Below are positions 5,931-46,332 of a stretch of 64,000 bases of DNA, piece after piece. The notes under the pieces are model-generated. The model did not search any database. It was not told the origin of the DNA and was given only the letters and a program-made list of their open reading frames with translations. The DNA is taken from NCBI GenBank assembly GCA_914767715.1, contig OU612065.1:36272001-36336000 (forward strand), written 5' to 3'. Position numbers and translations under genes: made by a program. Source of the DNA: Membranipora membranacea. Its lineage: Eukaryota; Bryozoa; Gymnolaemata; Cheilostomatida; Membraniporidae. Position 1 is the stretch's first letter; each line of letters opens with the position of its first letter.

Positions 5931-5969
5931 GATCATTTATACTAAATGGCTTGTTGTGGTAAGGGGTTT

Positions 5970-17500: not shown

Positions 17501-17519
17501 GACAGCATGTAGTTTATAA

Positions 17520-21000: not shown

Positions 21001-21001
21001 T

Positions 21002-21200: not shown

Positions 21201-21209
21201 TGAGTCTAG

Positions 21210-22070: not shown

Positions 22071-22074
22071 ACTC

Positions 22075-22390: not shown

Positions 22391-22399
22391 ATTTTAGAA

Positions 22400-24589: not shown

Positions 24590-24698
24590 ATGGATCCTCC
24601 ACCAAAAGACTCTGCTAGGAGAAGAAGACTTAACCCACAAGGGGCAGAATACAATGAGGAAGCTCAGGCTACAGGAACGGGTCAACCTGCTATGCAGA
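24590..24698 (+). CDS. Exon 1: basic N terminus
   Basis: MDPPPKDSARRRRL starts at the first ATG after stops in frame, and the exon ends ATGCAGA before GTAAGT (phase 1). The single A left over completes a Lys codon with exon 2. This phase match is the main support for the start; an upstream non-coding or coding exon cannot be excluded. Confidence 0.6.
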
Positions 24699-27600
24699 GT
24701 AAGTTTTGGTTTATTCACAATGCAGAGACCCTAATTATAAAGATTATAATACTTTTCAGTGGATTCAATCATTTACTCTTTTATCCACAGCGCTAAGACT
24801 CTTAACAAGTTTCTCTTCTGAGTAAACATCATGCCTGCTCCATATATCATAATATCACTAATTTCAATTGCACCTGGACGGAACCTGAAGAAGAAATGAA
24901 ATACTCCCTAATAGGACGTCACATTTCGTTGTTTTCCTCTCTTCACAAACAGGAAGACAGCCCTAGTTATTGCCAAAGCATGCAAATGTTTTATGTAGTG
25001 TTAGGCCACACCGGGTGTCACATTGTCAAGGCTCTCAGGCTCTCCGCTATAATAACTCCTCTCATCATGTAAACTTTCTATGGATACAATATTGCACAAC
25101 CGATCAACCATTTCCCTGTTTCTATATGAGATAACACTGATATTATTTGACACAAACTCTCTTCTGTTTTAATGTTGATTGAAGGAAAAAAGACATATTA
25201 TGCCACTGTCTTTTCACCATAACTTACAATCTTGTTCTAGAACATAATATATTAAGTGAGGACCAAGCTGCTGTTGATATTTATCAAATGTGAAGATATC
25301 GGGTCAAAAAAATTAAATAGTTAAGGTAGCCCTATCAGTTTTGTGAGCTAGTTTCTAACCATAACATCATATCAATAATTTTAATATCCATAATATTTCC
25401 TATATGATTGCTGGTCAGCTTAGGTGTGGTGAATATACCCCAATTTCGTTTATATTCTATTCATATGGTATTGCTGAAACTTCTTTGGTGCTAACATCAA
25501 CCAAACTAGGTGGTACGTTATGATGATTCAGGCAAGTTATCGAAGTTAAAATTTTAGGGAAAATATGAACCATCTTATAATCAGAGAACTTCTCTATTTT
25601 TTCTATATTGATGTTCACAGAGTATTATAGAATCTGGTATCGAGATGACAGTGAACCAGATGTAGCCAAGTTATCTTATAGACTACAGACAGAGTACAGG
25701 AGATTTACACTAGAGGAGCTTATATCAGCTACACAGGATCTCACTGTGACTCATATGTCTATCGAAGGAGACATACCACCAGTACTCAGTCAGATAGCAC
25801 CTCATCTAAAAGCGCTGAAGATATGGGATATAACTTATCATGACCAATTAGAGTAGTAAGTAGATTAAAATCTATATAACAGACTGTATCGGAATCGCGC
25901 TAACCGATTGCGCCATCTCACCATCCCCAAAAAAGAATGGGTCGATTACGCTAATTAGATAGCCCGCTATTCACTACTCGGAGTTGTGTTCTCTCATCCC
26001 ACAGCCCGTTACAATCCACCATTGCCACCCTATGAAACACAGCGTACGTGCCACCTGATGTCAACAAAACTGTACCAAAAACTGAGGTGTCCAGATTAAT
26101 CAAGATGATTGATAGTAATGATTGATGATAGTAATGATTGATATAATGATAGTATGATAGAATGATTGATAGTAATGATTGATAGTAATAGTAATGATTG
26201 GTCAATATAGTTGCTTGATTGATAGATCAGGGTAGAGTTATTAGACCGACAAATCTAGTGTAAATGCAAAATCGTTATACCCTATATTATTACACCGACA
26301 TTTACTGCCAACAGTCGGTGTTGTTCAATTATGCAGCTTTGGGTTATTGGCCTTACATGGCCCATTGCTGGGACCCCTTGTAGTAGGTTTAGCTGTCTTT
26401 CCAGCTTGTCAGCATGTCTTTCCATGCTGTCACATGTCTATCCATGAGTCAGTCAGTAGACAAGTACACAGTAGTACACAGTCTTTGTTAGGAATGGTGA
26501 GATGGCGCAATCGGTTAGCGCCCTTGCTATTCACTGCCAGGTGATTAGTGCTGCAGGAGTTGTGGGTTCGAGTCCCACTGGGGGAGCTTTCATTGTTGAT
26601 TGTTCCAGCCCCCAGCACCCTCGGGTGTATACCTCTACTGTGTACTTGTCTACTGACTGACTCATGGAAAGACATGTGACAGCATGGAAAGACAGCTAAA
26701 CCTACTACAAGGGGTCCCAGCAATGGGCCATGTAAGGCCAATAACCCAAAGCTGCATAATTGAACAACACCGACTGTTGGCAGTAAATGTCGGTGTAATA
26801 ATATAGGGTATAACGATTTTGCATTTACACTAGATTTGTCGGTCTAATAACTCTACCCTGATCTATCAATCAAGCAACTATATTGACCAATCATTACTAT
26901 TACTATCAATCATTACTATCAATCATTCTATCATACTATCATTATATCAATCATTACTATCATCAATCATTACTATCAATCATCTTGATTAATCTGGACA
27001 CCTCAGTTTTTGGTACAGTTTTGTTGACATCAGGCGGCTGCTCCATTGTTACCATCTTGTTCCCTCTGGCATTTAACCTTGTGTCGTTCATTCTGTGACA
27101 TGATCACAGAGCAACGATTTCATTAAACATTTAATCTTTCAGTGTGCGAGCTAATGCAATATCAAGACAAATATCCTAAACTCCTTGCACTGACTCCGAT
27201 CAACGCAAACATCATCTCTTTACCGTTACATTCGAGATCTAAAGTTCAGTTCAGTTCATTCAAAACTTTACTATTCAACCATATATTATCGACTTGACCA
27301 ACATCATTGATGATAATATTTCCTTTCTGTTTCTCTTTTTTTGTTTTAAAATTTTTTTGTCTGGCACTGAGTGCAAAACATTTCGAATGAGATGACTTTG
27401 GTTGCCAATAAAAGTATATATATCTCATCAGAAACCAATGAGATAACAGTGTCCTTACCAAACAAAGCTTGTCAATACAGGTTAGAGTTGATGTAAATCA
27501 TAATTTGAATTTGTATGCCTGATTTTAAAAGACCCAGTGAGGCGGCTAGGGGGCAAGGGGTAACCTCTAGAGATTGAATCCACTTCATTTGGAAACACAG

Positions 27601-30600
27601 GTATTCACTTATAAGTCAGGCAAGGGAGTAGAGTAATGTGTAGTTGCTCGAGAAGTGTCTTTCCCCTTGAGTAAATCCTGCCAATCCGAGGGTTCGGATG
27701 GTCTTATGCTTAAATTTTCTTTCTGGTGGAAACTACCAGTTGTGTTGGTCTTTGGGACGGGGCGTTAGCATAAAATTATGTTTTTGTGTGCTTTTATTCC
27801 AGTTTGAAACTGTAACAACTTTTTTCAAAATAATTATCCTTTAATAATCAATTGCACTCAGAAATGATGGTGGTGAAATATTCACCTCAAAATAGACAAA
27901 AAATGAACGCAGTCAACATCAAATAACTCGTAACTTAATGTGACTTGTGATACCCTTATCATTTGGCATGTCATACTGTTTGAAAAACTACTTCTTTCTT
28001 ACTCTTAGCTCATGGGCACCTGGGACTTACATGCCTTACTTTACCAATGTCCAGTATCAACCGCGTGTTTTTGGGGTGGTTGGTACTGGACATTGGCAAA
28101 ATAAGGCATGTAAGCCCAAGGGGCCCATGGCTTAGCTAGTAGAGACTACCTGGAGTAAGTAGATTTTTTAAATTCAGTATTTTGATCTACAGGCATCGAC
28201 ACACAGACATCAAGTTAGTCTATTAGTCATGTTGTGATCACATGATCTGTAGGTAGACCATAGAATAAAGTCGGACAACTCTTATTTTATTCCGAATTCA
28301 CAACTATTGCAATTTATTTTTGAGTTGTCCTCTTTTTCCAAATGGATTTACCCTGGCTATCCCCCTCCCCATCCGCCCACCCCCAACAGCCTGCCGAGGC
28401 TTCCCTTTGTTGATCAGAAAGATTATAGGAGAGTAATTTCTAACTCTTATTGGACTGGATTATTACATTTTAACAATAATTAAATGTTTTAAATCTCCAG
28501 CATGTTCATAACGAGGGATCAGTTCTCAACTACAGTAGTGTATAAAACAGTATTTTAGTTCAGTAAAACCTCATTTGTTGTAAATCATGTAATAATCTGT
28601 GGGCTGAACAATTTGTTTTGGTTAAAACTAATTCTGATACCACCACAATATAGAAAACATAGCTTATATTCTGGACAGACAGGTTCCCGGAGATTATGAC
28701 TTAAAAATCATCTATCAATCATCATTCTATCTCCTTGTTACAGTATGAGATCACTAACCAGCATAGAGGAAGTGAGCATATCCTGGAATAGGAATCTGAA
28801 ATCCTTACCAGACTGGATTGGAGAACTCACGAGTCTTAAGAAGCTAGATGTGTCTGAATGTGACCTCACTCACCTACCTAACAGGTATGTGAACACTATG
28901 ATTCCATTATTCTCAATAATAGTTTTTACTTCAGTGTCTTTATTAGTGACTCTAAATGCAATTTTATATCACTGATCTTGTACTTTTAATACAATATTGG
29001 CTTCAATTAGCATGCCTGAAACCACGCAACAATATGATAATAGGATATGATATTAACTAATGACTTCTTGAGCGTGGAGAATTTTACAAATATACATTGA
29101 TTAATGTTATATAGCTACATAATATTTGCAGTTTTCGTTTCTGCTGGGTAGTATTCATCAGTGATAGCAGTTGATTTTTTTTTTAAATTTGGATATAAAT
29201 TAAAAAGTCACGAACATAACAGAAGCAAGATTGTTGCAAATAAATAGTCTGGTTGCAGTGTACTTGAAAAATAACAAGCTTTATTAAATACACCCAAAAT
29301 TGATTTGAGAAACTAAGAGACACTTTGTGATCAAGATACACTGATATCATAAACTGGTAATATTCACAAGTCGAGAGAACTTAACAAACAAGTATTAAGT
29401 GTGCGATAGTGTCGCAACATATATCTCAATGATGTTAACCTCTTTTTGGCTGTAGTGCCTTGTAAGTATATCATTTGATCCCAGAGGTTTATCCCTGAAA
29501 TTGTTTGTGATGCATTCATAATAGTCATAATAGTCATAGTCATAATAGTCTGAACTCTGTCAACTTTAAGTATGAGCAAGGATTCAAACTGTTCCCACAG
29601 ACAAGGTTTCCATTTTCAATGCTGTATCTTAGTTTTAATCCGTGAGAAATTCAGCTTCAGTTATAATGAGTAAGAAGCAACTTGTATGCCAACTTTTAAA
29701 AGACCCAGTGAGGGGGCTTGGGGATGCAAGTTAACATCTAGAGATTGAGTCCACCACACTTGAGAACATAGTTATTCACTTATAAGCCAGGCAAGGCAGT
29801 AGAATAATGTGTAGTCGATTTCATTGCTCAGTAATTATCTATCCCCTTGAGTTAATCCTGCCAATCCATCGTAGGTTGCCGATGGTCTTATGCATAAATT
29901 TTCTTTCTGGTCGAAACTACCAGTTGTGTTGTTCTTTGGGACGGGTGTTAGCATAAATTGATTTTTTTGTGTGCTTTTACCCCAGTTGGAAACTATAACA
30001 AAAAAAATTATCCTTTAATAATCAATTACACTCAGAAATGATGTTGGTGAAATATTCACCTCAAAATAGACTAAAAATGAATGCAGTCAACATCAATTAA
30101 CTCGGAACTTGATGTATTAGATATAAATTTTTGTTCTACAAAATTTCCCAAAATTGATATTTCTTATAATTAAGATTACTTACAAATTTAGCAGTAGGAA
30201 ACCAGATAATATACACATCGGATCATATATTATACTTATAATCTTATATTTGTGTATTAAAGAGCATTAACCATCTTATCCTCACCTATTTACTCTCCTT
30301 GTTGCAGCATGAGAACACTCACCAGCATAGAGGAAGTGGATATATCCTTGAATACGGAACTGAAATCCTTACCAGACTGGATTGGAGAGCTCACGGGTCT
30401 TAAGAAGCTGGATGTGTCTCGTTGTGGCCTCACTCACCTGCCTCACAGGTACATATACATTATAGTTTATAATATCATTTAAAACTTTGATACTGGTAGG
30501 TATAAAACTATGTAAAAACCTTTCTGTCTTAATACTTGGCATCCTGTATGAGTTTCTGATAAAAGAGTTGCACTGGTTCAGAATATAAATATCAAAATTG

Positions 30601-33600
30601 AGAAAATTGTAAGCAGTATTTTCATTCCTATTACACACCTAAAATTTGGCATAAAAAATTAGGAAGCAGTTACTCTCTATTAACCTGGGTGAATCAGCGA
30701 AACCTTGTCCTGATCTTTCACAATTAAAAGGAGACAGAGGAGGACTTTTGTCTCTTGATTCTTTTATTATTTAATTTCTAAGCTGGTGAACATTTGCCTG
30801 ATCAGTTGTCTTCAGGACACCTACTTTTATCATATATTTGCTGTTTCTCTTTTTTTGTTTTGAAATCCTTTTTTTTTTCTTGCACTGAGTGAAAAACATT
30901 TCAAATTAGATGACTTTGGTTGCCAATAAAAGTATATATATCTCATCAGAAACCAATGAGATAACAGTGTCCTTGCCAAACAAAGCTTGTCAGTACAGGT
31001 TAGAGTTGATGTAAAATATAATTTGAATTTGTATGCCTGATTTTAAAAGACCCAGTGAGGCGGCTTGGGGGCAAGGGGTAACCTCTAGAGATTGAATCTA
31101 CTTCATTTGGAAACATAGGTATTCACTTATAGGTCAGACAAGGTAGTAGAGTAATGTGTAGTTGTGTGTTCATTTCATTGCTCGAGAAGTATCTATCCCC
31201 CTGAGTTAATGCTGCCAATCCAAGGGTGCGGATGGTCTTACGCTTAAATTTTCTTATGGGGAAACTACCAGTTGTGTTGGTCTTTAAGACGGGGCGTTAG
31301 CATAAATATATGTTTTTGTGTGCTTTTATTCCAGTTTGAAACTAACAACTGTTACAAAAATATTATCCTTTAATAATCAATTGCACTCAGAAATGATGGT
31401 GGTGAAATATTCATCTCAAAATAGACAAAAAATGAACGCAGTCAACATCAAATAACTTGTAACTTGATGTATTAGATATGAATTTATTTTTTTTTACAAA
31501 ATTTCCCAAAATTGATACTTCTTATAATTGAGATTACTTACAAATTTAGCAGTAGGAAACCAGATAATATACACATCGGATCATATATCCTTATAAACTT
31601 ATATTTGTGTATAAGGGAGCATAAACCGTCTTAACCTCACTAAGTTATTCTCCTTGTTGCAGTATCAGAACACTAACCAGTATAGAGGAAGTGATTATAT
31701 ATAGGAATGGGAATCTGAAATCCATACCAGACTGGATTGGAGAACTCACGAGTCTTAAGAAGCTATATGTGTCTGATTGTGGCCTCACTCACCTGCCTAA
31801 CAGGTATGTAAATATTATGATTTCATTTTTCTCAATAATAATTCTTACATCAGTGCCTTCATCAGTGATAAAATGACTCTTCACGTGACTTTAGATCTGT
31901 CAAAGGTTGTTTACAATGTGTTTATAATATCATATCAGTTAAATATTTGATACTGGTAGGTATAAAACGATGTAAAATAATTTCTGTCTTAATATTTGGC
32001 ATACTGTATTTTCCGATAAAAGAGTTGCACTGGTTCAGAATATAGGTATCAAAATTGAGAAAATTGTAAGCAGTGTTTTCATTCCTATGACACACCAAAA
32101 ATTTGGCATAAAAAAGTAGGAAGCAGTTTCTCTCTATTAACCTGGGTAAATCAGTGAAACCCTATCCTGATCTTTCACAATTAAATAGAAACGAAGGAAG
32201 AGGATTTTTGTCTTTTGATTTTTTTTATTATTTAATTTCTTTGCTGGTGAACATTTGCCTGATCAGTTGTCTTCAGGCCACCTACGTTTATCATATATTT
32301 GCTTGTTACCCTATTAATCAAGGAATTTAGAAATGTCAATTAGTTGAAAAGGGATTTCTTCTCGTATATCTTTCAGTGTGCGTGCTAATGCAATATCAAG
32401 ACAAATATCCTAAACTCCTTGCACTGACTCCGATCAACGCAAACATCATCTCTTTACCGTTACATTCGAGATCTAAAGAGAAGTTCTGTTCATTCAAAGC
32501 TTTACTATTCAACCATATATTATCGACTTGACCAACATCATTGATGATATTATTTCTTTTCTGTTTCTCTTTTTTTGTTTTAAAATCTTTTTATTTCTGG
32601 CACTGGGTGCAAAACTTTTTGAATGAGATGACTTTGGTTGCCAATAAAAAGTATATATATCTCATCAGAGACCAATGAGATAACAGTGTCCTTACCAAAC
32701 AAAGCTTGTCAATACAGGCTAGAGTTGATGTAAAACATAATTTGAATTTGTATGCCTGCTTTTAAAAGACCCAGTGAGGCGGCTTTGGGGCAAGCGGTAA
32801 CCTCTAGAGATTGAATCCATTTCATTTGGAAACACAGGTATTCACTTATAAGTCAGGCAAGGTAGTAGAGTAATGTGTAGTTGTGTGTTCATTTCATTGC
32901 TCGAGAAGTATCTATCCCCCTGAGTTAATGCTGCCAATCCAAGGGTGCGGATGGTCTTATGCTTAAATTTTCTTTCTGGTGGAAACTACCAGTTGTGTTG
33001 GTCTTTAGGACGGGGCGTTAGCATAAAATTATGTTTTTGTGTGCTTTTATTCCAGTTTGAAACTGTAACAACTTTTTTCAAAATAATTATCCTTTAATAA
33101 TCAATTGCACTCAGAAATGATGGTGGTGAAATATTCACCTCAAAATAGACAAAAAATGAACGCAGTCAACATCAAATAACTCGTAACTTAATGTAATTGA
33201 TATGAATTATAATTTTTTTTACAAAATTTCCCAAAATTTATACTTCTTATAATTGAGATTACTTACAAATTTAGCAGTAGGAAACCAGATAATATACACA
33301 TCGGATCATATATACTTATAAACTTATATTTGTGTATAAGGGAGCATAAACCATCTTAACCTCACTAAGTTATTCTCCCTGTTGCAGTATGAGAACACTA
33401 ACCAGTATAGAGGAAGTGAATATATCCTGGAATAGGAATCTGGAATCCTTACCAGACTGGATTGGAGAACTCACGAGTCTTAAGAAGATAGATGTGTCTA
33501 GATGTGGCCTCACTCACCTGCCTAACAGGTACATAAACATTATGATTTCATGATTCCCAATAATAATTCTTACATCAATGTCTTCATTAGTGATCAAATC

Positions 33601-36600
33601 ACTCTAAATGTGATTTCAGATCTGACAAAAAGGTAGTTTACAATATGTTTATAATATCATTTAAAACTTTGACACTGGTAGGTATAAAACTATGTAAAAA
33701 CCTTTCTGTCTTGATACTTGGCATCCTGTATGAGTTTCCGTTAAAAGAGTTGCACTGGTTCAGAATATGAGTATCATATTCTGATAAAATTGTAAGCAGT
33801 ATTTTCATTCCTATAACACATTAAAAATTTGGCATAGGAAAAGTAGGAAGCAGTTTCTCTATATATCTCTGGGTAAAGCAGTATAACCTTGTACTGAGCC
33901 TTCCATAGATATATTGAGTGTTCTAATGCCACTATAGGTCGCAGCTAAAATATGTACGTAAATTCTCATAATGCTCCACTAAACGAGATAAACCTGACAG
34001 TCCAACTCTAGAATTAAATGGTGTGGAAATAGATTGTTGTGACAATGTTAGATATTTGGGAGTACTTGATTCTTCCTTCTTATTCCTTGTGATACCCTTA
34101 TCATTTGGCATGTCATACTGTTTGAAAAACTACTTCTTTCTTACTCTTAGCTCATGGGCACCTGGGACTTACATGCCTTACTTTACCAATGTCCAGTATC
34201 AACCGCGTGTTTTTGGGGTGGTTGGTACTGGACATTGGCAAAATAAGGCATGTAAGTCCAAGGGGCCCATGGCTTAGCTAGTAGAGACTACCTGGAGTTA
34301 GTAGATTTTTTTAAATTCAGTATTGTGATCTACAGGCATCGACACACAGACATCAAGTTAGTCTATTAGTCATGTTGTGATCACATGATCTGTAGACCAT
34401 AGAATAAAATCGGACAACTCTTATTCTATTCCGAATTCACAACTATTGCAATTTATTTTTGAGTTGTCCTCTTTTTCCAAATGGATTTAACCTGGCTGTC
34501 CCCCCTCCCCATCCACCCATCCCCAACAGCCTGCCAAGGCTTCCCTTTGTTGATCAGAAAGATTATGGGAGAGTAATTTCTAACTCTTATTGGACTGGAT
34601 TATTACATTTTAACAATAATTAAATGTTCTAAATCTCCAGTATGTTCATAACGAGGGATCAGTTCTCAACTACAGTAGTGTATAAAACAGTATTTTAGTT
34701 CTAGTCCAGTGGCAGCCTTCCAAAAATGTGTCTAGAAATGCAACTTCATTTGGATGGATAAATTCTAAGAGTGGATACTAGGGTAGTTTTTTGAGGCGGT
34801 CGCAATGGTGATGATGTATGAGGGTGCGGATGGTGAGAAAGATTATAGGAGAGTAATTTCTAACTCTTATTGGACTGGATTATTACATTTTAACAATAAT
34901 TAAATGTTTTAAATCTCCAGCATGTTCATAACGAGGGATCAGTTCTCAACTACAGTAGTGTATAAAACAGTATTTTAGTTCAGTAAAACCTCATTTGTTG
35001 TAAATCATGTAATAATCTGTGGGCTGAACAATTTGTTTTGGTTATAACTAATTCTGATACCACCACAATATAGAAAACATAGCTTATATTCTGGACAGAC
35101 AGGTTCCTGGGAGATTATAACTTAAAAATCATCTATCAATCATCATTCTATCTCCTTGTTACAGTATGGGAACACTAACCAGCATAGAGGAAGTGAAGAT
35201 ATCCTGGAATAGGAATCTGGAATCCTTACCAGACTGGATTGGAGAACTCAAGAGTCTTAAGAAGCTAAATGTGTCTGAATGTGACCTCACTCACCTACCT
35301 AACAGGTATGTGAACACTATGATTCCATTATTCTCAATAATAGTTTTTACTTCAGTGTCTTTATTAGTGATCAAATCACTCTAAATGTGATTTCAGATCT
35401 GTCAAAGGTAGTTTACAATAAGTTTATAATATCATTTAAAGCTTTGATACTGGTAGGTACAAAACTATGTAAAAACCTTTCTGTCTTAATATTTGGCATC
35501 CTGTATTTTCTGATAAAAGAGTTGCACTGGTTAAGAAAATAAATATCAAAATTGAGAAAATTGTAAGCAGTATTTTCATTCCTATTACACACGAAAAATT
35601 TGGCATAAAAAAGTAGGAAGCAGTTACTCTCTATTAACCTGGGTGAATCAGCGAAACCTTGTCCTGATCTTTCACAATTAAAGGGCAACCAAGGTTTCAA
35701 ACAACTTCTCATTGATGGCCATTGATTAATAGCAGATTGCACCTTCTGCATGGGGAAAAAGACAAAATATAATTCGGATGATTATTCAGCCAGAATTCTT
35801 GTGAAACATTTCTTCCATCAGGTACTCAAACTCAGCTAAAAGAGAATACCACATAGCAGTTTCCTGTTCCTGTTATTATTTAGCCTGTGCTCTATAATTA
35901 TTACAGCAAAGTCTTGGAACCTCCCCTAAACTGATGTGTCACCCAGCTTAGAGTCAGCAACTACTTTGAGTTTTGCATCGCGTAATGCACAAAGCTGATG
36001 CTGCCCAGCACATTATTTGCTACCCATTAATACATTGCTGCGAAACCTTGGTTGCCCTTTAAAAGGAAACAGAGGAGGACTTTTGTCTTTTGATTCTTTT
36101 ATTATTTAATTTCTATGCTGGTGAACATTTGCCTGATCAGTTGTCTTCAGGACACCTACTTTTATCATATATTTGCTGTTTCTCTTTTTTTGTTTTGAAA
36201 TCCTTTTTTTTCTGGCACTGAGTGAAAAACATTTCAAATTAGATGACTTTGGTTGCCAATAAAAGTATATATATCTCATCAGAAACCAATGAGATAACAG
36301 TGTCCTTGCCAAACAAAGCTTGTCAGTACAGGTTAGAGTTGATGGAAAATATAATTTGAATTTGTATGCCTGATTTTAAAAGACCCAGTGAGGCGGCTTG
36401 GGGGCAAGGGGTAACCTCTAGAGATTGAATCCACTTCATTTGGAAACATAGGTATTCACTTATAAGTCAGGCAAGGTAGTAGAGTAATGTGTAGTTGTGT
36501 GTTCATTTCATTGCTCGAGAAGTATCTATCCCCCTGAGTTAATGCTGCCAATCCAAGGGTGCGGATGGTCTTATGCTTAAATTTTCTTTCTGGTGGAAAC

Positions 36601-39600
36601 TACCAGTTGTGTTGGTCTTTAGGACGGGGCGTTAGCATAAAATTATGTTTTTGTGTGCTTTTATTCCAGTTTGAAACTGTAACAACTTTTTTCAAAATAA
36701 TTATCCTTTAATAATCAATTGCACTCAGAAATGATGGTGGTGAAATATTCACCTCAAAATAGACAAAAAATGAACGCAGTCAACATCAAATAACTCGTAA
36801 CTTAATGTAATTGATATGAATTATAATTTTTTTTACAAAATTTCCCAAAATTGATACTTCTTATAATTGAGATTACTTACAAATTTAGCAGTAGGAAACC
36901 AGATAATATACACATCGGATCATATATACTTATAAACTTATATTTGTGTATAAGGGAGCATAAACCATCTTAACCTCACTAAGTTATTCTCCCTGTTGCA
37001 GTATGAGAACACTAACCAGTATAGAGGAAGTGAATATATCCTGGAATAGGAATCTGGAATCCTTACCAGACTGGATTGGAGAACTCACGAGTCTTAAGAA
37101 GATAGATGTGTCTGATTGTGGCCTCACTCACCTGCCTAACAGGTACATAAACATTATGATTTCATGATTCCCAATAATAATTCTTACATCAATGTCTTCA
37201 TTAGTGATCAAATCACTCTAAATGTGATTTCAGATCTGACAAAAAGGTAGTTTACAATATGTTTATAATATCATTTAAAACTTTGATACTGGTAGGTATA
37301 AAACGATGTAAAAACCTTTCTGTCTTGATACTTGGCATCCTGTATGAGTTTCCGTTAAAAGAGTTGCACTGGTTCAGAATATGAGTATCATATTCTGATA
37401 AAATTGTAAGCAGTATTTTCATTCCTATAACACATTAAAAATTTGGCATTTACCCTGGCTGTCCCCCCTCCCCATCCACCCATCCCCAACAGCCTGCCAA
37501 GGCTACCCTTTGTGGATCAGAAATATTATGGGAGAGTAATTTCTAACTCTTATTGGACTGGATTATTACATTTTAACAATAATTAAATGTTTTAAATCTC
37601 CAGCATGTTCATAACGAGGGATCAGTTCTCAACTACAGTAGTGTATAAAACAGTATTTTAGTTCTACTCCAGTGGCAGCCTACCAAAAATGTGTCTAGAA
37701 ATGCAACTTCATTTACTGATTTGGATGGATAAATTCTAAGAGTGTATTTTAGGGTAGTTTTTTGAGGCGGTCGCAATGGTGACGATGTACATTACACAAA
37801 TTTGCACCATAGGCAGCAAATTGCCAAAAGCGCTGCCAAAAATGGCCAAAATTGCTGTTTTTTTAGATTTCAAAGGCCTGTCCTGTGCTCACCTTATGAG
37901 TTGGGCAACTCAAACTCTGCAATCAGATTCATACATACCTTGGTCAGTTTTAGGTATAATATCAGCATGATATCTCAAATATTGAGTGAATGACCAACCT
38001 TAAAAAAGTGACAAACTTAAAAACGCTGCCAACGAAAGGGAAAGTGGTGAAAAAATGATGATAAATAGTTTCAAAACATCTAAAATCTGAAAGAGCATGT
38101 CATAATTTGTGGATCTACAATTTCACATGGGTCTGCCATCATAAATAGCCGAGATGTGGCCAACAACGGTTACCCCCATATATCACCTGTATATAAACAA
38201 CCATTGAAATGACAATTTGGCAGAACAATAGTCTGGTTGCAGTGTACTGTGAAAATAACAAGATCTATTTAATACACCCAAAATTGATTTGAGAAACTAA
38301 GAGACACTTTGTGATCAAGATACAATGATATCATAAACTGGTAATATTCACAAGTCGAGAGAACTTAACAAATAAGTATTAATTGTGCGATAGTGTCGCA
38401 ACATATATCTCAAACATGTTAACCTCTTTTTGGCCGTACTGCCTTGTAAGTATATCATTTGATCCCAGAGGTTTATCCCTGAAATTGTTTGTGATGCATT
38501 CACAATAGTGAATGTTCTAATGCCACTATAGGTCGTAGCTAAAATATGTACGTAGATCAGAGGTGCCCAACCTATGGCTCATGAGCCACCTCGGCTCATT
38601 TTGGCTTTTTTGGTGGCTCATTTTAATATTTGCAAATTTCACGCGCTTTTTGGCGCGAATTTCATGCATTCAATTCATGCATGTACAATGTACATTAAAT
38701 GTATGTATAGTGTATACAAGTTCATTGTACTGGGTGCCTGCATTGTAATATGTGTGTAGAGTTGTCTTCTTGCAGACTTGCCAACCTAAATTTTCCAAAA
38801 TGCTTACAAAAATTTGCAAAATGCTTAAAATGCTTACAAAACTCCAGGGCGCCTTATATGACCAGAAATTGCCTCCAAAATTTTTTCGAGCTATGCGCGT
38901 AATCTCTTTGCTTTGGAATTTTTGCCAACACTTATACATGAATGAATATGATCCATATATATCACTGACTGTTTCCATGTTGTCTACACGCGACGTGGTC
39001 AGCTCATTTGGTTTAATTGATTTTTGAAATGGCTCATGCGAGAGAAAAGGTTGGGCACCACTGACGTAGATACTCAAAATGCTCCACTAAACGAGATAAA
39101 CCTGACAGCCCAATTCTAGAATTAAAGTGTGTGGAAATAGATTGTTATGACCATGTTAAATATTTGGGAGCACTCTTTGATAACAAATTACGTTTCAAAA
39201 GTCATGTCAATAATGTTGTGACAAAATTTTTGTTAGTTTGACCGAGGAGCAATTGATTTTTTGTTTCATGTGGGTATATAATATGTCTGAAAATACTTAA
39301 TCATGATTGGAATTAATTCTCGTTCAATTTTAGTCAGATATTTGTCTATGTCTGTTAGTCTATGCGATACTGCCTTTTGAAGTCTTTTTGGCGATTAGAG
39401 AAAAATCTCACAGGCTACATAAAATATACCCAATAGTGATTCGAGTACACTGATATCACGAATTGGTAATATTCATTAGTTGAGAGGATATAACAAATAA
39501 CATGCAAATGAATAAATCCTGGTGAAATTGCCCTCTGTGCCACCCTTCTCCTAATTGTTCAACTGGTTCTACTGATAATAATTGTGTAAACATTGTGTTA

Positions 39601-42600
39601 AGTCTGAAATATTGGCGATTTATAGAGGATTCGACAACAAAAATGATGAAAAACATCAAATATTGGAATCATGAGCAGTTAACAATTCAAGATGACAAAT
39701 GCTCTAGTGAAACAATAATAATGATACATCTGTTTGAGATGTCATGTTACCTAATACCTAATACAGTGTGACATGACTGCTTGTGAAAATCTGATACATG
39801 TTTACCTATTTGTTGCCTTGTAAGCGCCTTGTAAGTATATCATTGTCCCTGAAATTGTCGGTAATAGTCCAAACTATGTCATTTTGGGAACATTAGCAAG
39901 AAATCAAACTGTTCTACCAAGAGGATTTCCATGTCAATGCTGTATCCTAATTTCCAATTAGTATCTATCTCTTTGAGTTAATCCTACCGATCCATCATAG
40001 GTTGCGAATCCTCATTTCATGCATTGATTTGCTTACTGTGGATACTTAAAGTTTTGTTGTTCTTACTAAGTTTCTATAGATCCTGCATGCAGGGCTTGGA
40101 GCATGTATAATAAGGATATTTCATATGAATGACTTTTTCCTTTCACCTTGCTGAGGCCAATTCTCGCTACCTTCGTACACACATTGATAGAATGGCCTTT
40201 ATCTTTTCCATCTATTTTCCTGTAGCTGTGTTCTAATTGGATCTCTTAACAGCAGGTTCCTTTACGTTTTTGGAAGTATCCTTCTTGAGGTTTTCAATTT
40301 TCATCAGCTCTCTCAACCAGGAATTTAGCTTTATAGCAGTATACTTCAACTTCTTGGTCAGATTCCAGCATTCCAGGTTCGCCGTGGTCGGTAGTTGATC
40401 ATAAGCTGCACCAACCAAAAAGCTGATACTTTGTGGCTCCATCGACCACATTTCTGTCCATTTGATTGGTATATTATTCCTCCTCTCTAATACAAGATAT
40501 CAAAGACTGGTATCTGAACTTATTTCTTTTTTCTAGCATGTCAAAACTGGTAAATTTGGAGGAACTTGAGCTCAGAACTATCCCCTCTCTCCTCTCAATC
40601 CCTCCTGGTGTTTGTCAACTCAGTAAACTGATGACAATAGACTGTGATGAATGTGAAGCACTGACGAGTCCTCCATACGCTGTCTGTACACAGGGGCTTG
40701 ATGCAATGAGAAAATACTTTACAGATCTGGAAGAAGATAGGGAGACGAACATAAAGTTTGTTCCAGTCACTGTTTTTGGTCAAACCATGGCCGGAAAAAC
40801 CAGTCTTGTTCGGTCAATGCAGAAAAATGAACGTGTTTTGACTTTGCGATGTGACAATAGCAAGCTAGATGAGGCTACCAAAGTGTTCAAGGTGTGCGAG
40901 GCAGAGGTCGATGACAAATACAAATTAGTATTCCATGACTTTGGTGGGCAGGCGATTTATCAGTTTGCCTACCAATTGTCAGATAGATCCCAGTACATTC
41001 CCATGCTCGTCATAGACATTGCTGAATTTGACCGTCTGGTAACTGAACAGGGAGAAGAAGTTGCCTGTGAAACAGTTTGTTTTCAATGGCTCTCCCACCT
41101 CTACCTTGCAAGCCCCAAGGCAGGCCCGCCATTTGTAGTGTTGACCCACTGTGATGTTATCGATAGCCAGATCTGCGAAACTAGGCTGAGATTGCTGATA
41201 GAAGTAACAGAACGCTTACGATCAATATTATTAAAGGAGGAGAAAGCCATGGTACCAGAGAAAAGCCCAATTTTGATCATGAAAAGTTTCCAGGATACAT
41301 CCCAGCCCCTTCTCACTCAGCACACACCACGCTTCTTTTACAAAGATTCTACCACTGAAGTAATTTGTGGTCTAAAAACCTTCCTCGTGTCTATTGGATT
41401 ATCGCTGCTCACAGAAATTCCAGGTAGCTGGTATGTTCTGATGGAACTGTGTGCAAACAACAAGCAGCCATACCTGACGCTGGAAGAGCTGGACAAGCTA
41501 TTTCCTGGTGACAAAGACCGCGTAATTCTTCAATACCTGAATGAAATAGGAAGAATCAAGTGGTACAGGAATAGAGAAAACCTGTCCAATATAGTGTTCC
41601 ATCGAATCGAGCTGCTCACACACCTGATCGAGTTGCTCTACGACCATTCCAGAAAGGATACCTGGGATCAGCGGATAAAGAGTTTCCAAGCTTTTAAGGA
41701 TGTGAGTCAGGATGTGAAAATAAACAAAAGGAAATACAACGACATGATTAGATCCTTCCTAGACACTGGGGTCATAAGGGATATTCTGCTACATCATCTA
41801 ATCAGCCAAGAATCTGAGGTTAGACCTGAGGTGGCAATAGAAGTATTGAAGGTGTTCCATCTGATCTGCGGTCCAGTACAGAAGGGTAGTGAGAGTCACT
41901 ACGTCATCCCATACTTCAGTCCGAGAGTAATCACAGTAGAGGAATCTGGGAAATACATCCCTTTGAAAGTTGACATTTGTTTCAATGGATTGGCACTTCC
42001 AAGCTATGCATATGATCTGCTTACAGCAATATATGTCAACCTCCACATCACACCTTCCAATCACATTGATGTCGGCTGCAACGGTGCTTGTGTTAGAGAA
42101 GACAACGGCACAATCAAGTATTTATTTCACGACCATATTGAGAAAACCGTCACACTTATCATACTATCACCATCAGAAGAAATAGCCACATCCTGGGGCA
42201 GCCTGCTGAACACTTTGCAACATCTGACATCACAACTAGAAGAAGTATGGAAGGGAGCTCACTGGGAGAAGGTATTTTACTGCTCACACTGCCTGCTTGC
42301 TAAACAAGACAGCCTACACACTCAGGTGGATCCAGAATGGCTGACCCTTAAAAGGCCACCCTATACTGGCAAAGAAGTTTGTGTCTGCAGTGAACCCCCT
42401 ACAGCCCAAGGCCGATTATCAGTTCCACGTCCGTTCATCTATCCATGTTAGTACCGCTAGAATTATGTTTATAAACTCATGTGCAGTTGGCGTTTAAGGC
42501 ATGATTTGAATGTTGCTGGTTGCATTTTTATGTCTCTTTCTGTATCTGTATTCTCTCTGCAAATCTACATAAATGTTATAATTAATAGGCGGCAGCATTA

Positions 42601-45600
42601 CTGAAAGAGGAATTAAAACTTTGGACGAGTACTTGTCAAATATTGAAACAGGACAGCATCAGGCAGGTAGGTAATTACAGAGTTCATGTTCGGTGATCGA
42701 GGAAAAAAAATCAAATTTAAAATTCTAATATATACCTCTGTCAGAACAATAACCATGGAATTGTCAATGGTTGAACATGTCCACCTTTCCAGACTTTTAT
42801 TGCTGTCACGCAGGACAAGCAAAGTTAGGTATTGGATTGGGAGCATCGGTTGATCTACGGTCTGGAAATGCTTTTATTCCCAGCCTTAGCCTGAGTACTC
42901 AACAAGTGCGTTTGAGTTGCTGTTGCCTCTTTTCAATCTAAATCTAGTTTCTGTTGTTGCTCATTTGTGACAATTCAACAACAATAATAATTTCACAATC
43001 TGAAAACCCCGTTTTGTCATTTTTTTAACACATATCGTGTTTTTTTAGCGCAGATGCAATATTTTCTCAATCTTTTTCCTTTTGTCACATGTTATAGTAT
43101 TCATATTTTTTGTCTTTACAGCCTCAGCAACTTCACAGTCCGATAGTTCACACGATCAACTTGCTGTACAGGTATCACAAATTGATGATATCGTGAATGA
43201 AGTGAACTCTGATCAGGTTCTGATCAGTCATGAGCCAGTTACAGCTGATCCATCGAGCACATATCTGAAGAATCAGGTAATTGAGTTGTCCAGCTTTTGC
43301 TATCAAAAAAGGCATGCTGACCTGTGCGATTCAATTTGCTGTCTTAGAATTGCCCTCTCACATTATCATCAGTTCTGTTAGTTCAGTTAAGTCCATACTT
43401 CCCATGCGTCCCCAACAAAACTTATTTCAATTGAAAGCTTTGCCAAGACAGACTAAAATGCGAAAATGAACACAGTGCAATATAAAATGCGCACTACATT
43501 TTACAACTTTGTTGATGTTATGTCTGCATGTCTTCATTGATCGGTTTTAGAGTGTGTATAGTGTGTCTAAAACTCGTGGAAGAGCACTGATAATATCAAA
43601 CAGAGACAGGAGAACAGGCTCAGATCATGACAACGACAATATTAAACGAATGCTAGGCAAGTTCGGATTCATTACTGTTGGAGGACATGACAGCTACACT
43701 GCGCAGGTAATGAATCTTCCACACAGCACTGCAAAATCCCGATACATTCAGTACATGGCAATAAATGTGTCTATTGAAACCATTACAGTTGGGAGAAATT
43801 AATTTGAACACTGAAAACTACTTAATTTAAAATTTGCTGATTTAAATGATGCATGAGTGAAACCCTGGGCAATGATCATTAATTTTGATGAATCCCTCAA
43901 ATATTTCCACTGACTTCATGAAATGTGTACAATGAAAAATATTACCACGGTTATTTACACTGTTGTGGCACCTAGCCTAACCTGTCTGGAATCAATATAT
44001 CCATATATCAAACCTCATAGTATCATTTAACTTGGAGAGGTAGATGGATGTAATGATCCGATGGGGATTAAGTGGAATTTACTCCTTGTGTTATGCTCTT
44101 TGCTTAGGAAATAGTTGCCGCTATTCATTCAGAGACACAACTAGTAGACCCACTGACAAATGAATCAGTACACAAACAGCTACACTCATTTGTGCTAGTC
44201 ATCGCGAGTCACGGACATGAGGGATCTGTATCTGGTTCTGATCGGAGACATCTCAAAATCACAGAGGTTATAGACCTACTCTCCCCTAAAAACTTCCCTG
44301 CTATGAAAGGGAAGCCAAAGCTCGTGATTATACAGGCGTGTGCTGGCAGTAAGTCTGTGAATCTGTATAAGAATATAAAGACAGCTACCTAAGCTTTCAA
44401 AATACCTGCAAGTCTTCATTCAACTCTAGTAGAAAACTCATTTTTATATGCTCAATAGAAATATGATTGATTATCAAATACTATGACGCAACGCTGAGAA
44501 GTGGGCTATCGAGTCTAATTAGTATACATACAACCTGTTAACATCCTACACTATTGTTAAGTGAACCACAGTAAGCTCTGAGCTATTAAGGTTTTGAAGA
44601 AAAAGTTAACATTACCATCTGGACACATTAAATCAAGTTCTTTGGATTTTCATCTGCAACCGTTCTGATTTGTTTGATAGATCCTTATTGGATCAGGTCA
44701 CTAAAAGCCAAGATAACATGACTTTGCAGGTAAGAGAGAGATGTTTCTCATGGACCCACCCCCTCCAAGACCTGCACCAACTCAGAATCGACCCGATGTC
44801 GGTAATATCAATCAGTCTTCTGCCCACACTTCTGATGATGACAGTGATAACAATGAGGAAAATGATGAAGCAAATAATCAAGACAGTGACGGAGACAGTG
44901 ACGAAGACAGCGGTGAAGACAGCGGTGAAGACAGCGGTGAAGACAGCGGTGAAGACAGCGGTGAAGACAGCGGTGAAGACAGCGGTGAAGACAGCGGTGA
45001 AGACAGCGGTGAAGACAGCGGTGAAGACAGCGGTGAAGACAGCGGTGAAGACAGCAGTGAAGACAGCGGTGAAAATGGAACTGAGTCACATACCCTCGAC
45101 CCTAGTGATATCTCTACATCAGACTTCATGATCATGCAGTCCAGCTTTGATTGTAAGTAGAGAACAATTTCCCACCTAGTTAATCTAGACTAAATGAATA
45201 CAGCGATTGGTCAGCTGTAGCATAACTGATTTAATACACCAATAAGAAAGCTCTAAGTTGGTCCTTTTCCACACTAAAACAAACAAGTTTCCCGATCCAT
45301 GCATTGCGTGCATGTTTGGTTCTAGAAACATCGTCAATTTGCTAATCTAAAAATTGACTCAGCACTTACCATTGAGACGCAGGAACAGTGAAGGTCGAGT
45401 TAAAAACAGGGGCAATCACAGCATGATTGTTTTATGACCAAATTTACTTCGACAAAATCAATTTAGATTGTTTTAGTTTTCATATTATGATGTTGTTTCC
45501 CTACAGTGTTCAAGTCACCACGGAGACATACAGTTGGCTCGACGTTCATTCGATGCTTGGTATCAGTGTTCTACAGATATGCTGATAGATATCATCTCAG

Positions 45601-46332
45601 GGAGCTGGCAAAAATGGTAAGTGATTGTACGATTAACATGTCGATTACCTTTCCTTGGTGTAAGTGCATAACATCAATTTTTGCATGAGTTGATGATAAC
45701 TATATTCATTCCAAATCATTGGAAGATTCATACTTAGCTCTAGTCACATCCCTTGTTTCTCAGGTAGGGGAGGCTGTAGCTAAAGCTGGAACACAGAGAA
45801 CAGAATATCTGCTGAGGACTCGTAGATACAATGGAAGTTTTGAGAATGCTTTTCGTGCCTCGATGCCGCAGACCAGATGTACATTCATTGAAAAGGAGTT
45901 CTATCTACAGCCTGGTATCAATATGAGAACAGAGGATGGGCCAGAGGATCATCCAGAATCACTGAGAAACCCTGTGCTCCCGGATAACACGTATACTAAA
46001 ATAGAGCAAAAACCTAGTGAGTGATAAGAGCTATTTTGAGCTGGTATTTATATTATTTATTTGCTTATGCTTATTATTGATTTTGGTAATTAACCCTTGT
46101 GTGGCTTCTCTTTCTGAGGGGGGATGGGGTAATTCAATGATTCAAACAGTGACAGTAAATAACAAAATACAAAATGAATACGCAAATAATTATATTGATG
46201 GCAATCTCGCATGATATATTTTATACCATATCTTCTGTTTTTCAAGATTTGATACAACGATTTGAGAGAGCAGGAGAGATAAACCTGAAGAAAACTTATT
46301 ATCAGTGGAGAGTGAAAAAGAACCCAACATGA
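24590..46332 (+). CDS. LRR-Roc-COR (Roco) GTPase fused to a caspase, 17-exon model, 1533 aa
   Basis: Exons: 24590-24698, 25621-25855, 28744-28884, 30308-30448, 31663-31803, 33388-33528, 35165-35305, 37002-37142, 40537-42446, 42589-42666, 43122-43276, 43551-43706, 43... continuing 44108-44348, 44730-45152, 45507-45616, 45764-46016, 46247-46332. All have GT..AG borders and joining phases, totalling 4602 nt. Domains in order: basic N terminus; LRRs (about residues 100-445); Roc GTPase with G1 FGQTMAGKTS (477-486), G3 DFGGQ and G4 THCD; COR-like region to about 1030; linker; caspase p20 with SHG (His 1198) and QACAG (Cys 1241); acidic repeat linker; p10; short C-terminal tail. Roco proteins usually end in a kinase or death domain, so a caspase effector is unusual. 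By family knowledge this is a cytosolic GTP-regulated dimeric switch attached to an Asp-specific protease; a role in cell death or innate immunity is inference. No transcript was available, so start, end and splice choices are predictions. Confidence 0.8.
25621..25855 (+). CDS. Exon 2: N-terminal domain before the LRRs
   Basis: The exon is preceded by TGTTCACAG and followed by GTAAGTAG. It encodes YYRIWYRDDSEPDV, then FTLEELISATQDLTVTHMSI and HLKALKIWDITYHDQLE. The last part (L.ALKIWDI) looks like a degenerate LRR strand, and the first part is not a domain I recognise. It ends in phase 2, and TA plus T of exon 3 makes Tyr, so it splices to the LRR exons. Confidence 0.75.
25886..26010. repeat. 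Rearranged fragments of SINE family A
   Basis: GCGCTAACCGATTGCGCC and CATCTCACCATCCCC form a minus-strand SINE head. GCTATTCACTACTCGGAG and TTGTGTTCTCTCATCCCAC form a plus-strand internal piece. Both lie in the intron after exon 2, just outside the large inverted repeat. Confidence 0.65.
26054..27034. repeat. Giant near-perfect inverted repeat (arms ~400 bp) with a SINE as loop
   Basis: The left arm (26,054-26,472) and right arm (26,637-27,034) are reverse complements over about 400 bp. I saw only one 21-bp extra segment in the left arm (near 26,400-26,421) and a few single mismatches. The loop (26,473-26,636) is a family A SINE. The arms contain a (ATCATT)-type simple repeat and the block TAAATGTCGGTGTAATAATA. 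It lies in intron 2 of the LRR-Roco-caspase gene. No protein similarity; the mirrored frames are products of the symmetry. Confidence 0.9.
26490..26636 (+). repeat. tRNA-derived SINE (family A)
   Basis: Head GATGGCGCAATCGGTTAGCG (A box), then GGGTTCGAGTCCC (B box), then the tail CAGCACCCTCGGGTGTATAC. The internal promoter is intact by eye. It forms the loop of the large inverted repeat; its right edge coincides with the start of the right arm. Confidence 0.85.
27513..27930 (+). repeat. Intronic repeat of the LRR-exon family, copy 1 of 5
   Basis: A block beginning TATGCCTGATTTTAAAAGAC and containing CCAGTGAGGCGGC, AGAGATTGAATCCAC and CACTCAGAAATGATG. It recurs near 29,680, 31,020, 32,745 and 36,360, ahead of LRR exons. 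GGCGGCT..GG.GGCAAGGGG and AGATTGAATCCAC are loosely A- and B-box-like, so the block may have started as a SINE. Confidence 0.75.
28006..28137. mobile_element. Fold-back (MITE-like) element
   Basis: AGCTCATGGGC..ACTTACATGCC..CCAATGTCCAGTA faces TACTGGACATTGG..GGCATGTAAG..GCCCATGGCT across a short loop. A near-identical copy with the same flanks lies at 34,147-34,279, so both were copied with the surrounding intron. Confidence 0.8.
28744..28884 (+). CDS. Exon 3: LRR exon 1 of 6
   Basis: A 141-bp exon, phase 2 at both ends (TTACAG before, GTATGT after), encoding 47 residues with two leucine-rich repeats: LTSIEEVSISWNRNLKSLPD and LTSLKKLDVSECDLTHLPN. Its flanks match those of the 35,165 exon. 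Confidence 0.85.
29250..29575. repeat. Intronic duplicated block (also at 38,228-38,515)
   Basis: TAGTCTGGTTGCAGTGTACT through GATAGTGTCGCAACATATAT and GATCCCAGAGGTTTATCCCT is nearly the same in both places. A third, more diverged copy spans about 39,400-39,870. Confidence 0.75.
30308..30448 (+). CDS. Exon 4: LRR exon 2 of 6
   Basis: Same 141-bp phase-2 design, after TTGTTGCAG and before GTACAT. Reads VDISLNTELKSLPDWIGEL and LKKLDVSRCGLTHLPHR. It is the most divergent member (Thr-Glu for Arg-Asn in the first repeat; His for Asn near the end). Confidence 0.85.
31663..31803 (+). CDS. Exon 5: LRR exon 3 of 6
   Basis: Same design after TTGTTGCAG, before GTATGT. Reads IRTLTSIEEVIIYRNGNLKS and LKKLYVSDCGLTHLPNR. 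The first repeat has IIYRNGN where its siblings have NISWNRN, a change on the exposed beta-strand face. Confidence 0.85.
33388..33528 (+). CDS. Exon 6: LRR exon 4 of 6
   Basis: Same design after CTGTTGCAG, before GTACAT. Reads VNISWNRNLESLPDWIGEL and LKKIDVSRCGLTHLPNR. Exon and several hundred bases on both sides are almost the same as the 37,002 copy; I see VSR versus VSD as the coding difference. Confidence 0.85.
33930..34080 (+). pseudogene. Non-LTR reverse transcriptase C-terminal fragment
   Basis: Reads STKRDKPDSP, LELNGVEIDC and NVRYLGVL, the region after the RT core where non-LTR elements have YLGV.ID. A second copy at 39,070-39,240 continues KYLGALFDNKLRFKSH. This copy also marks the site that is empty of the hAT element found at 38,558. 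Confidence 0.65.
34147..34279. mobile_element. Fold-back element, copy of the 28.0-kb element
   Basis: Same inverted arms as 28,006-28,137, slightly more symmetric here (GTAAGTCCAAGG facing the CTGGGACTTAC arm). It directly abuts the reverse transcriptase fragment, at the boundary of a ~1-kb segmental duplication. Confidence 0.8.
34560..34985. repeat. Local tandem duplication within an LRR intron
   Basis: The block from GAGAGTAATTTCTAACTCTT to TATAAAACAGTATTTTAGTT appears twice about 280 bp apart (from ~34,569 and ~34,849). Between them lies TCCAGTGGCAGCCT..GAGGCGGTCGCAATGG, which recurs at 37,665-37,785. Confidence 0.8.
35165..35305 (+). CDS. Exon 7: LRR exon 5 of 6
   Basis: Same 141-bp phase-2 design after TTACAG, before GTATGT. 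Reads VKISWNRNLESLPDWIGEL and LKKLNVSECDLTHLPNR. Flanking introns match the 28,744 exon, so the two derive from one duplication. Confidence 0.85.
37002..37142 (+). CDS. Exon 8: LRR exon 6 of 6
   Basis: Near copy of the 33,388 exon with the same flanks; reads LKKIDVSDCGLTHLPNR in the second repeat. Ends CCTAACAG before GTACAT in phase 2 and joins the C of the Roc-COR exon to make Ser. Confidence 0.85.
38558..39063. mobile_element. Non-autonomous hAT element, 506 bp, with 8-bp target duplication
   Basis: The ends are CAGAGGTGCCCAACCT and AGGTTGGGCACCACTG (inverted, one mismatch). The flanks are ACGTAGAT on both sides (38,550-38,557 and 39,064-39,071), an 8-bp target-site duplication typical of hAT. 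The related intron copy near 33,950-33,970 lacks the element (GTACGTAAATTCTCATAATG). The internal frames overlap on both strands and do not resemble a transposase. Confidence 0.9.
39070..39240 (+). pseudogene. Non-LTR reverse transcriptase C-terminal fragment, second copy
   Basis: Reads STKRDKPDSPILELK, VEIDCYDHVKYLGALFDNK and LRFKSHVNNVVTK, continuing a little further than the copy at 33.95 kb. It is split from its upstream part by the hAT insertion. Confidence 0.65.
40233..40451 (-). pseudogene. Non-LTR retroelement C-terminal fragment
   Basis: The minus frame reads SISFLVGAAYDQLPTTANL and ECWNLTK. The pattern 'FL..A.YD.LPT.ANL..W' is found near the C terminus of some invertebrate non-LTR polyproteins (normally followed by a CxxC). 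It ends just before the Roc-COR exon and is presumably a relic in the intron. Confidence 0.45.
40537..42446 (+). CDS. Exon 9: last LRRs, Roc GTPase and COR
   Basis: A 1910-bp exon after TTTTTTCTAG. It opens with one more LRR pair (LVNLEELELRTIPSLLSIP; LSKLMTIDCDECEALTSPP), then Roc: G1 FGQTMAGKTSLVRSM, G3 FHDFGGQAIYQFAY, LVIDIAEFD, and G4 VVLTHCD. The following ~380 residues have COR-like features: helical LLTEIPGSWYVLMEL, LEELDKLFPGDKDRVILQYL with a winged-helix look, GVIRDILLHHL, then HYVIPYFSPR. Typical Roco proteins have exactly this LRR-Roc-COR order. Continuing to the TAG at 42,449 would give a Roco protein without caspase, an alternative if the weak donor GTTAGT is skipped. Confidence 0.9.
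42589..43276 (+). CDS. Exons 10-11: linker between COR and caspase
   Basis: Exon 10 (42,589-42,666, TTAATAG before, GTAGGT after) reads GGSITERGIKTLDEYLSNI. Exon 11 (43,122-43,276) reads SATSQSDSSHDQLAVQVSQI and VNSDQVLISHEPVTADPSS. Both are short, polar and probably flexible. Phases (1 to 1 to 0) match their neighbours. Individually they are the least supported exons of the model. Confidence 0.65.
43551..44348 (+). CDS. Exons 12-13: caspase p20 subunit
   Basis: Exon 12 (43,551-43,706) encodes TRGRALIISNRDRRTGSDHD and IKRMLGKFGFITVGGHD, the first strand and helix of the p20 fold, with RTGSD at the place of the S1-pocket Arg. Exon 13 (44,108-44,348) encodes FVLVIASHGHEGSV with the catalytic His in SHG.EG, and KPKLVIIQACAG with the catalytic Cys in QACxG. 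Both catalytic residues are present, so an active enzyme is expected. The split within QACAG-S is in phase 1 with exon 14. Confidence 0.92.
44730..45152 (+). CDS. Exon 14: acidic p20-p10 linker with Glu-Asp-Ser-Gly minisatellite
   Basis: After CTTTGCAG the exon reads SKREMFLMDPPPPRPAP, then a highly acidic tract containing 14 units of a 12-bp repeat (44,903-45,070; GAAGACAGCGGT, Glu-Asp-Ser-Gly, one unit with Ser for Gly). It ends DISTSDFMIMQSSFD, which resembles the 'DFL..YST' strand just before p10 in caspases. The linker is about 140 residues, much longer than in most caspases. Confidence 0.85.
44903..45070 (+). repeat. 12-bp coding minisatellite, 14 units
   Basis: GAAGACAGCGGT repeated without a frame break, one unit with CAGCAGT. 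The near-perfect copies imply that the length is likely to vary between alleles. Open frames on the other strand here are mere mirrors. Confidence 0.95.
45507..46016 (+). CDS. Exons 15-16: caspase p10 subunit
   Basis: Exon 15 (45,507-45,616) reads FKSPRRHTVGSTFIRCL and FYRYADRYHLRELAKM. This matches the p10 pattern S.R....GS.FI..L......YA....L.E, with the S.R arginine of the S1 pocket conserved and Pro in place of the usual Trp. Exon 16 (45,764-46,016) reads VGEAVAKAG and FRASMPQTRCTFIEKEFYL, the last helix and strand. The exon either runs to TGA at 46,022 or, preferably, uses the donor CCTA/GTGAGT to reach exon 17. Confidence 0.88.
46247..46332 (+). CDS. Exon 17: C-terminal tail with KTYYQWxVxK motif
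   Basis: After TTTTTCAAG the frame reads LIQRFERAGEINLKKTYYQW, then RVKKNPT and TGA. It is joined by the single A of exon 16 (Asn). A second copy of this exon at 56,147-56,213 encodes VQSLTNGEKV and KTYYQWSVEKTTP, with the same phase and stop position. This cross-copy conservation is the reason to extend the gene past the TGA at 46,022. Confidence 0.7.

Follow-up and report, generated by a model that had tools for sequence, protein, structure and literature searches.

A bryozoan gene family predicted to join leucine-rich repeats, a Roc-COR GTPase and a caspase in one chain

We analysed a 64,000-nucleotide stretch of the genome of the bryozoan Membranipora membranacea (contig OU612065.1, positions 36,272,001 to 36,336,000; hereafter the window) and identified a gene, at 24590..46332 on the plus strand, predicted to encode leucine-rich repeats (LRRs), a Roc-COR GTPase and a caspase in a single chain. 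As judged from sequence comparison, the Roc-COR-caspase fusion is real and is conserved in bryozoans as a multi-copy family. We consider it probable that a single gene specifies a sensor roughly 1533 residues long, in which a ligand-set Roc-COR switch would control a tethered caspase, and that the sensor is most likely an immune receptor.

The 17-exon model proposed by the first-pass annotation was re-derived from the raw coordinates. All borders were GT..AG, and the exons summed to 4602 nt with an open frame encoding a 1533-residue protein. Because nine of the exons (3-8, 10, 12 and 14) are divisible by three, the matching phases add little extra support, and the relatives are the test that counts. 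The parts of the gene are as follows.

24590..24698, plus strand: exon 1, proposed start MDPPPKDS..., open frame with donor GTAAGT
25621..25855, plus strand: exon 2, N-terminal cap RIWYR...VTHMSI..., aligning with Watersipora P0001 and P0002
28744..28884, plus strand: exon 3, LRR exon unit 1, 141 nt, phase 2-2, two LRRs
30308..30448, plus strand: exon 4, LRR exon unit 2
31663..31803, plus strand: exon 5, LRR exon unit 3
33388..33528, plus strand: exon 6, LRR exon unit 4
35165..35305, plus strand: exon 7, LRR exon unit 5
37002..37142, plus strand: exon 8, LRR exon unit 6
40537..42446, plus strand: exon 9, final LRR and the entire Roc-COR tandem, 1910 nt
40766..41155, plus strand: Roc GTPase domain, Pfam Roc match at residues 77-206 of the exon-9 translation
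40778-40801, plus strand: P-loop GQTMAGKT, motif in Roc
40937-40951, plus strand: DFGGQ (switch II), motif in Roc
41144-41155, plus strand: THCD, motif in Roc
41411..42382, plus strand: COR-A and COR-B region, approximate bounds, by fold
42281..42388, plus strand: putative zinc-binding segment after COR-B, CSHC ... CVC
42447..42588, plus strand: intron 9, 142 nt, phase-1 donor, with TAG at 42,449 as intron bases 3-5
42589..42666, plus strand: exon 10, linker TLDEYLSNIE, conserved in relatives
43122..43276, plus strand: exon 11, linker
43551..43706, plus strand: exon 12, start of caspase p20, RGRALIISN...RTGSDHD
44108..44348, plus strand: exon 13, p20, with the catalytic His codon at 44210-44212 (SHG) and the Cys codon at 44339-44341 (QACAG)
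44730..45152, plus strand: exon 14, Asp/Glu-rich interdomain linker and start of p10
44903..45073, plus strand: 12-bp minisatellite, 14.2 copies, EDSG repeats, in the interdomain linker
45507..45616, plus strand: exon 15, p10, SPRRHTVGSTFIRCL
45764..46016, plus strand: exon 16, end of p10; the frame stops at 46,022-46,024 if the last splice is omitted
46247..46332, plus strand: exon 17, proposed last exon

When residues 398-1280 were used as the query against 5.8 billion proteins, two matches were obtained, both from Watersipora subatra (P0001 and P0002), with 32-33% identity and 96-98% of the query covered. The caspase part of one of them returned nine matches including itself, all from Watersipora. 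Both searches scored only proteins sharing short exact words and lying in the length range (6832 and 697 candidates, respectively). The exon-9 query, for which only the 7996 candidates sharing most words were scored, gave 42 matches: two more Watersipora proteins, one Bugula neritina protein carrying Roc, COR-A and caspase domains, four distant Roco-type proteins (P0041-P0044) and 35 open reading frames (ORFs; P0003-P0035, P0037 and P0038, sources jgi, ena and lgn), which were read as protein only. The domain order first noticed in the window recurs in the clade, with Roc-COR and caspase in 11 Watersipora proteins, spread over six contigs as told apart by their lengths, and in one Bugula protein; five of the sequences (P0036, P0039, P0040, P0047 and P0051) lack one end. 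Within the candidates scored, every named protein with the fusion was bryozoan, and the window was 25-32% identical to them overall. A scan of viral contigs for relatives gave nothing, and a tblastn search for further gene copies in the window gave nothing below E = 0.2 outside the gene. The Ensembl annotation of Watersipora rests mainly on transcript alignments, according to the accessible part of PMC12902671; the fusion proteins used here are NCBI models.

The Watersipora and Bugula proteins share with the window the domain order, the exon-10 segment and the catalytic motifs. Alignment with P0001, P0002, P0036, P0039 and P0040 spans Roc-COR, the exon-10 segment (TLDEYLSNIE in the window, KLDEYLSNLE in P0036), p20 and p10, and in P0001 and P0002 the N-terminal cap as well. 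In the alignment with the proteins of both genera, exon 1 found no counterpart and exon 17 no support. The sizes of the LRR arrays differ, and P0001 and P0002, unlike the window model, start with MG-x3-S (MGAKSS and MGCSLS). Such a start resembles an N-myristoylation signal, suggesting that some family members may be anchored to membranes; in the window, none of 13 candidate first exons (donor-pattern exons with ATGs at 15,001-25,600) was of this type (MG-x3-[STAGC]). In a tree of 52 sequences and 633 columns, the window and 31 ORFs, including P0003 with 97% identity to the window, fell in one clade, and the Watersipora and Bugula proteins with four ORFs fell in the other. Both clades hold many members, counted as sequences and not as species. 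Since the root was drawn from four very distant sequences, including P0043 (Candidatus Electronema), the root and the clade supports (0.80 and 0.89) are weak.

The domain content read by the first-pass annotation (LRRs, Roc motifs, a p20 with SHG and QACAG, and a p10) was borne out by Pfam search and motif reading. Peptidase_C14 matched the predicted protein at 1.5e-27, and a Roc match, below the Pfam gathering cut-off, was directly followed by COR, the arrangement of the Roco family, with both the P-loop GQTMAGKT and DFGGQ intact as sequence motifs. Among solved structures, the top sequence match of exon 9 was the Chlorobium tepidum Roco (3dpu, 4.5e-7). The lists from fold comparison were read for their Roco, GTPase and caspase rows. 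Weak matches to AAA_22, AAA_24 and AAA_16 at the P-loop were all below cut-off. An NLR/STAND receptor was considered and rejected, as the NTPase is Roc, a Ras-like GTPase, without a NACHT or NB-ARC STAND NTPase. In the seven Watersipora proteins scanned, the LRR, Roc and Peptidase_C14 models matched in all seven. The P-loop was complete in 10 of 13 members, nine of these 10 also having DxGG. Of 48 family members, 42 carry C-x2-C after COR-B, and a loose pattern places a second Cys/His pair in 25; no fewer than five of these second pairs, which overlap or lie past the later PC motif, are doubtful. It is possible that this putative segment binds zinc.

The caspase domain appeared complete. Its p10 subunit lies in the same chain as p20, as in caspases of family C14A, and alignment with caspase-9 placed all residues of the S1 pocket for Asp, namely the Arg of RxGSxxD, the Gln of QAC and the Arg five residues before GS.F. 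The last S1 site was Arg in eight and Lys in two (P0002 and P0048) of the ten members with the p10 pattern; the last site of the window and the first site of P0001 were read by eye, the pattern script having matched elsewhere. His-Gly was retained in 12 of 13 members (SHG in eight), as was QAC (P0045 by eye; QACRV in P0039), and P0036, the exception for both, is cut. Between QACAG and p10 the window has a 131-residue linker that contains 27 Asp and 20 Glu and derives largely from the minisatellite; the Watersipora linkers measured 184 residues in P0002 and 52-122 in nine others. By eye, P0002 and P0051 carry an unrelated coding repeat at the same protein position as the minisatellite. No CARD, DED or death-type prodomain was found in the window by Pfam at E <= 1, and no CARD or DED prodomain in the seven Watersipora relatives at E <= 0.1, where the sole death-type match was Death_EDAR in P0048, at 17.4 bits and within the LRRs. 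By sequence, caspase-9 and CED-3 ranked first, and by fold comparison of the low-confidence P0040 model, caspases 7, 3, 2 and 8 tied by Z. The gene had been described as a single-chain receptor-executioner: the single chain is upheld by the relatives, while the executioner class is not settled, caspase-9 and CED-3 leading the ancestral effector caspases by only 3-4 bits. Tethering to a sensor suggests an initiator role, although the caspase sequence alone does not settle the class.

The junction between COR and caspase bears on whether one gene or two are present. Read without splicing, the frame ends at 42,449, as it would if an LRR-Roc-COR gene ended there and a separate neighbouring caspase gene had been joined to it in error. 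However, Roc-COR and caspase share one chain in all 12 Watersipora and Bugula proteins, the exon-10 segment aligns with relatives and the stop is not conserved in the exon-9 ORFs, so that we find two genes scarcely credible. The TAG, whose use as a transcript end would have undone the joined frame as first proposed, lies inside the intron, and the ORFs of relatives carry a splice-donor signature at this point. By pattern, 27 of the 35 exon-9 ORFs reach a PxPL..PC motif. In 16 of them the following residue is Glu and in eight Lys, and the remaining three have a stop, Arg and Met, respectively; two ORFs that escaped the pattern, P0037 and P0038, show PCK when read by eye. Since Glu and Lys are the spelling of phase-1 GTGAG and GTAAG donors, the COR exon appears to finish at a conserved splice donor rather than at a stop codon. 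The ORF frames end 0-68 residues past the motif, any caspase exons lying further on, and the spliced Watersipora proteins differ here (PCFQL, PCDQL and PCYNL). A scan of the junction for bacterial-type promoters and terminators found none, with a model that is uninformative for an animal gene. Deliberate retention of intron 9, yielding a short LRR-Roc-COR form as a decoy or inhibitor beside the full-length form, would suit an intron of just 142 nt whose retention ends the frame right after a Cys codon; relatives do not share the stop position, though in them, too, a retained intron would close the frame 0-68 residues on, and we regard such a form as improbable.

Exons 3-8 form six 141-nt units with two LRRs each. 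Intron stretches are 83-99% identical between the units, indicating that the array expanded fairly recently. Among the 15 pairs of units, 5.5 pairs per site differed at the concave LxxLxLxxNx positions and 1.7 elsewhere (permutation p = 0.003). The ratio of nonsynonymous to synonymous differences (pN/pS) in these exons was 1.56 at concave positions and 0.66 elsewhere, with an overall LRR value of 1.02.

Together with the layout of the chain (N-terminal cap, LRR array, Roc-COR GTPase switch, possible zinc-binding segment, and caspase with a long p20-p10 linker), these features are consistent with the following mechanism. A ligand would bind the concave face of the LRRs and shift Roc-COR into another nucleotide and oligomeric state, thereby bringing together or releasing the tethered caspases. 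The caspases would then dimerise and autocleave in their own linker, and the resulting cell death or inflammatory proteolysis would need no CARD, DED or death-domain adaptors. Because the GTP-bound form of Chlorobium tepidum Roco (CtRoco) is monomeric, as given in the accessible part of PMC11052575, GTP could equally turn the caspase off by separation. The role of such a receptor is most likely immune, in response to non-self or danger, by analogy.

Several points weigh against this reading. The immune role rests on analogy. The Roc score stays below the cut-off in the window and in each of the seven scanned Watersipora proteins. In three of these (P0002, P0049 and P0050) it is the general GTPase model, MMR_HSR1, that exceeds its cut-off, and the LRR matches of P0002 also fall short of theirs. 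P0049 has DYAG in place of DxGG, and SHG is replaced by THG (P0002 and P0051), CHG (P0040) or AHG (P0039). The concentration of amino-acid variation on the concave face is no more than suggestive, as the site-count Fisher test was not significant (p = 0.09), and the statistics come from six paralogous exons, which are few and non-independent.

Bryozoans undergo heavy polypide turnover, and an active caspase under some other control, with Roc-COR mainly as a scaffold or localiser, could serve development or tissue turnover in place of immunity. The myristoylation-like starts of P0001 and P0002 would fit a localiser, whereas the P-loop and DxGG counts above weigh against this alternative, and a recognition role is the better match for the concave-face variation and the multiplied family; we hold the alternative to be unlikely, yet worth keeping in view. 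It is very improbable that the gene is a decaying copy of a working family member, with LRR variation reflecting relaxed constraint. An inverted-repeat element in an intron, retroelement sequences nearby and the overall LRR pN/pS would agree with a pseudogene, but 1533 stop-free codons over 17 exons, intact splice sites and catalytic motifs, and the uneven distribution of the LRR variation speak against it. A bolder version of the immune reading is a large and diversifying cell-autonomous repertoire for non-self or allorecognition, in which unequal exchange multiplies the LRR exons, splicing possibly selects among them, Roc-COR acts as a molecular timer, and recognition directly fires the built-in caspase. 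We raise it because allo-incompatibility is known from colonial animals, bryozoans included (accessible part of PMC8195603), and consider it tentative and rather doubtful.

The gene is flanked by two groups of minus-strand 5S ribosomal RNA genes, four copies at a spacing of about 1.39 kb at 511-4796 and three at a spacing of about 1.35 kb at 60436-63250, an arrangement that would suit a location within a 5S ribosomal DNA array. Intron 2 holds a near-perfect inverted repeat (26050-27038; 362-nt arms, 99%, plus 60-nt arms), within which 26502-26579 matched the Rfam transfer RNA model at 29.3 bits (threshold 29) with no ARAGORN call; the repeat resembles a short interspersed nuclear element. An uninterrupted 931-aa reverse transcriptase ORF (51907-54702, plus strand; RVT_1, 1.3e-30) may belong to a recent element like a long interspersed nuclear element, and fragments with weak reverse transcriptase matches lie at 5620-5967 and 48635-48988, minus strand.

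To our knowledge, the human Roco proteins MFHAS1, LRRK1, LRRK2 and DAPK1 are partnered with a kinase, a death domain or nothing, never a caspase, whereas the predicted output of the window protein is a caspase. MFHAS1 orthologues, as far as we know, are LRR-Roc-COR proteins without a C-terminal enzyme, and this identity was rejected for the window gene, which has a C-terminal caspase; the MFHAS1 name on the Watersipora records is the source's own label. The GTPase switch resembles that of LRRK2, the Parkinson's protein, and CtRoco shares LRR-Roc-COR but has no protease. Caspase-9, CED-3, caspase-2 and caspase-3 have in common with the window the p20/p10 domain, the His/Cys dyad and the S1 Arg/Gln. 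In animals, a separate sensor recruits initiator caspases by way of CARD or DED, whereas sensor and caspase form one chain in the window. The peptidase entry IPR009003 we take to be the trypsin-like PA clan. According to the accessible part of PMC11378527, it is this peptidase, and not a caspase, that stands at the C-terminus of brown algal ROCO group 3. The brown algal genes described there resemble the window in tandem phase-2 LRR exons, positively selected concave sites and large families, but with one LRR per 72-bp exon against two per 141-nt exon.

In the accessible parts of the literature, PMC6337361 names the four human Roco proteins above, and the word caspase does not occur in its text. 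Animal death sensors and caspases are usually joined through separate adaptor domains (PMC8195603), bacterial caspase systems are treated in PMC8195603 and PMC7159879, and COR-linked GTPases are rare in bacterial conflict systems (PMC7159879). Animals have up to forty ROCO domain combinations (PMC11378527, its Figure 2); a ROCO-caspase may be among those drawn, and the word caspase is absent from the accessible text. The nearest published proteins were Aplysia TIR proteins with ROCO domains (PMC9334734) and the brown algal ROCO proteins that bear the IPR009003 peptidase (PMC11378527). No description of a Roco-caspase was found in the literature searched, which mostly excludes subscription papers. 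The fusion appears to be an uncharacterised architecture, a Roco variant with a caspase as its predicted output.

A sensor, GTPase and caspase in one chain lets the effect of the Roc-COR nucleotide cycle on an attached enzyme be read by a simple protease assay, and this effect is the open question for LRRK2 as well. The family also makes bryozoan non-self recognition directly testable. If the allorecognition reading were true, it would represent a third animal sensor-to-caspase design, beside NLR/APAF1 with CARD and death receptors with DED.
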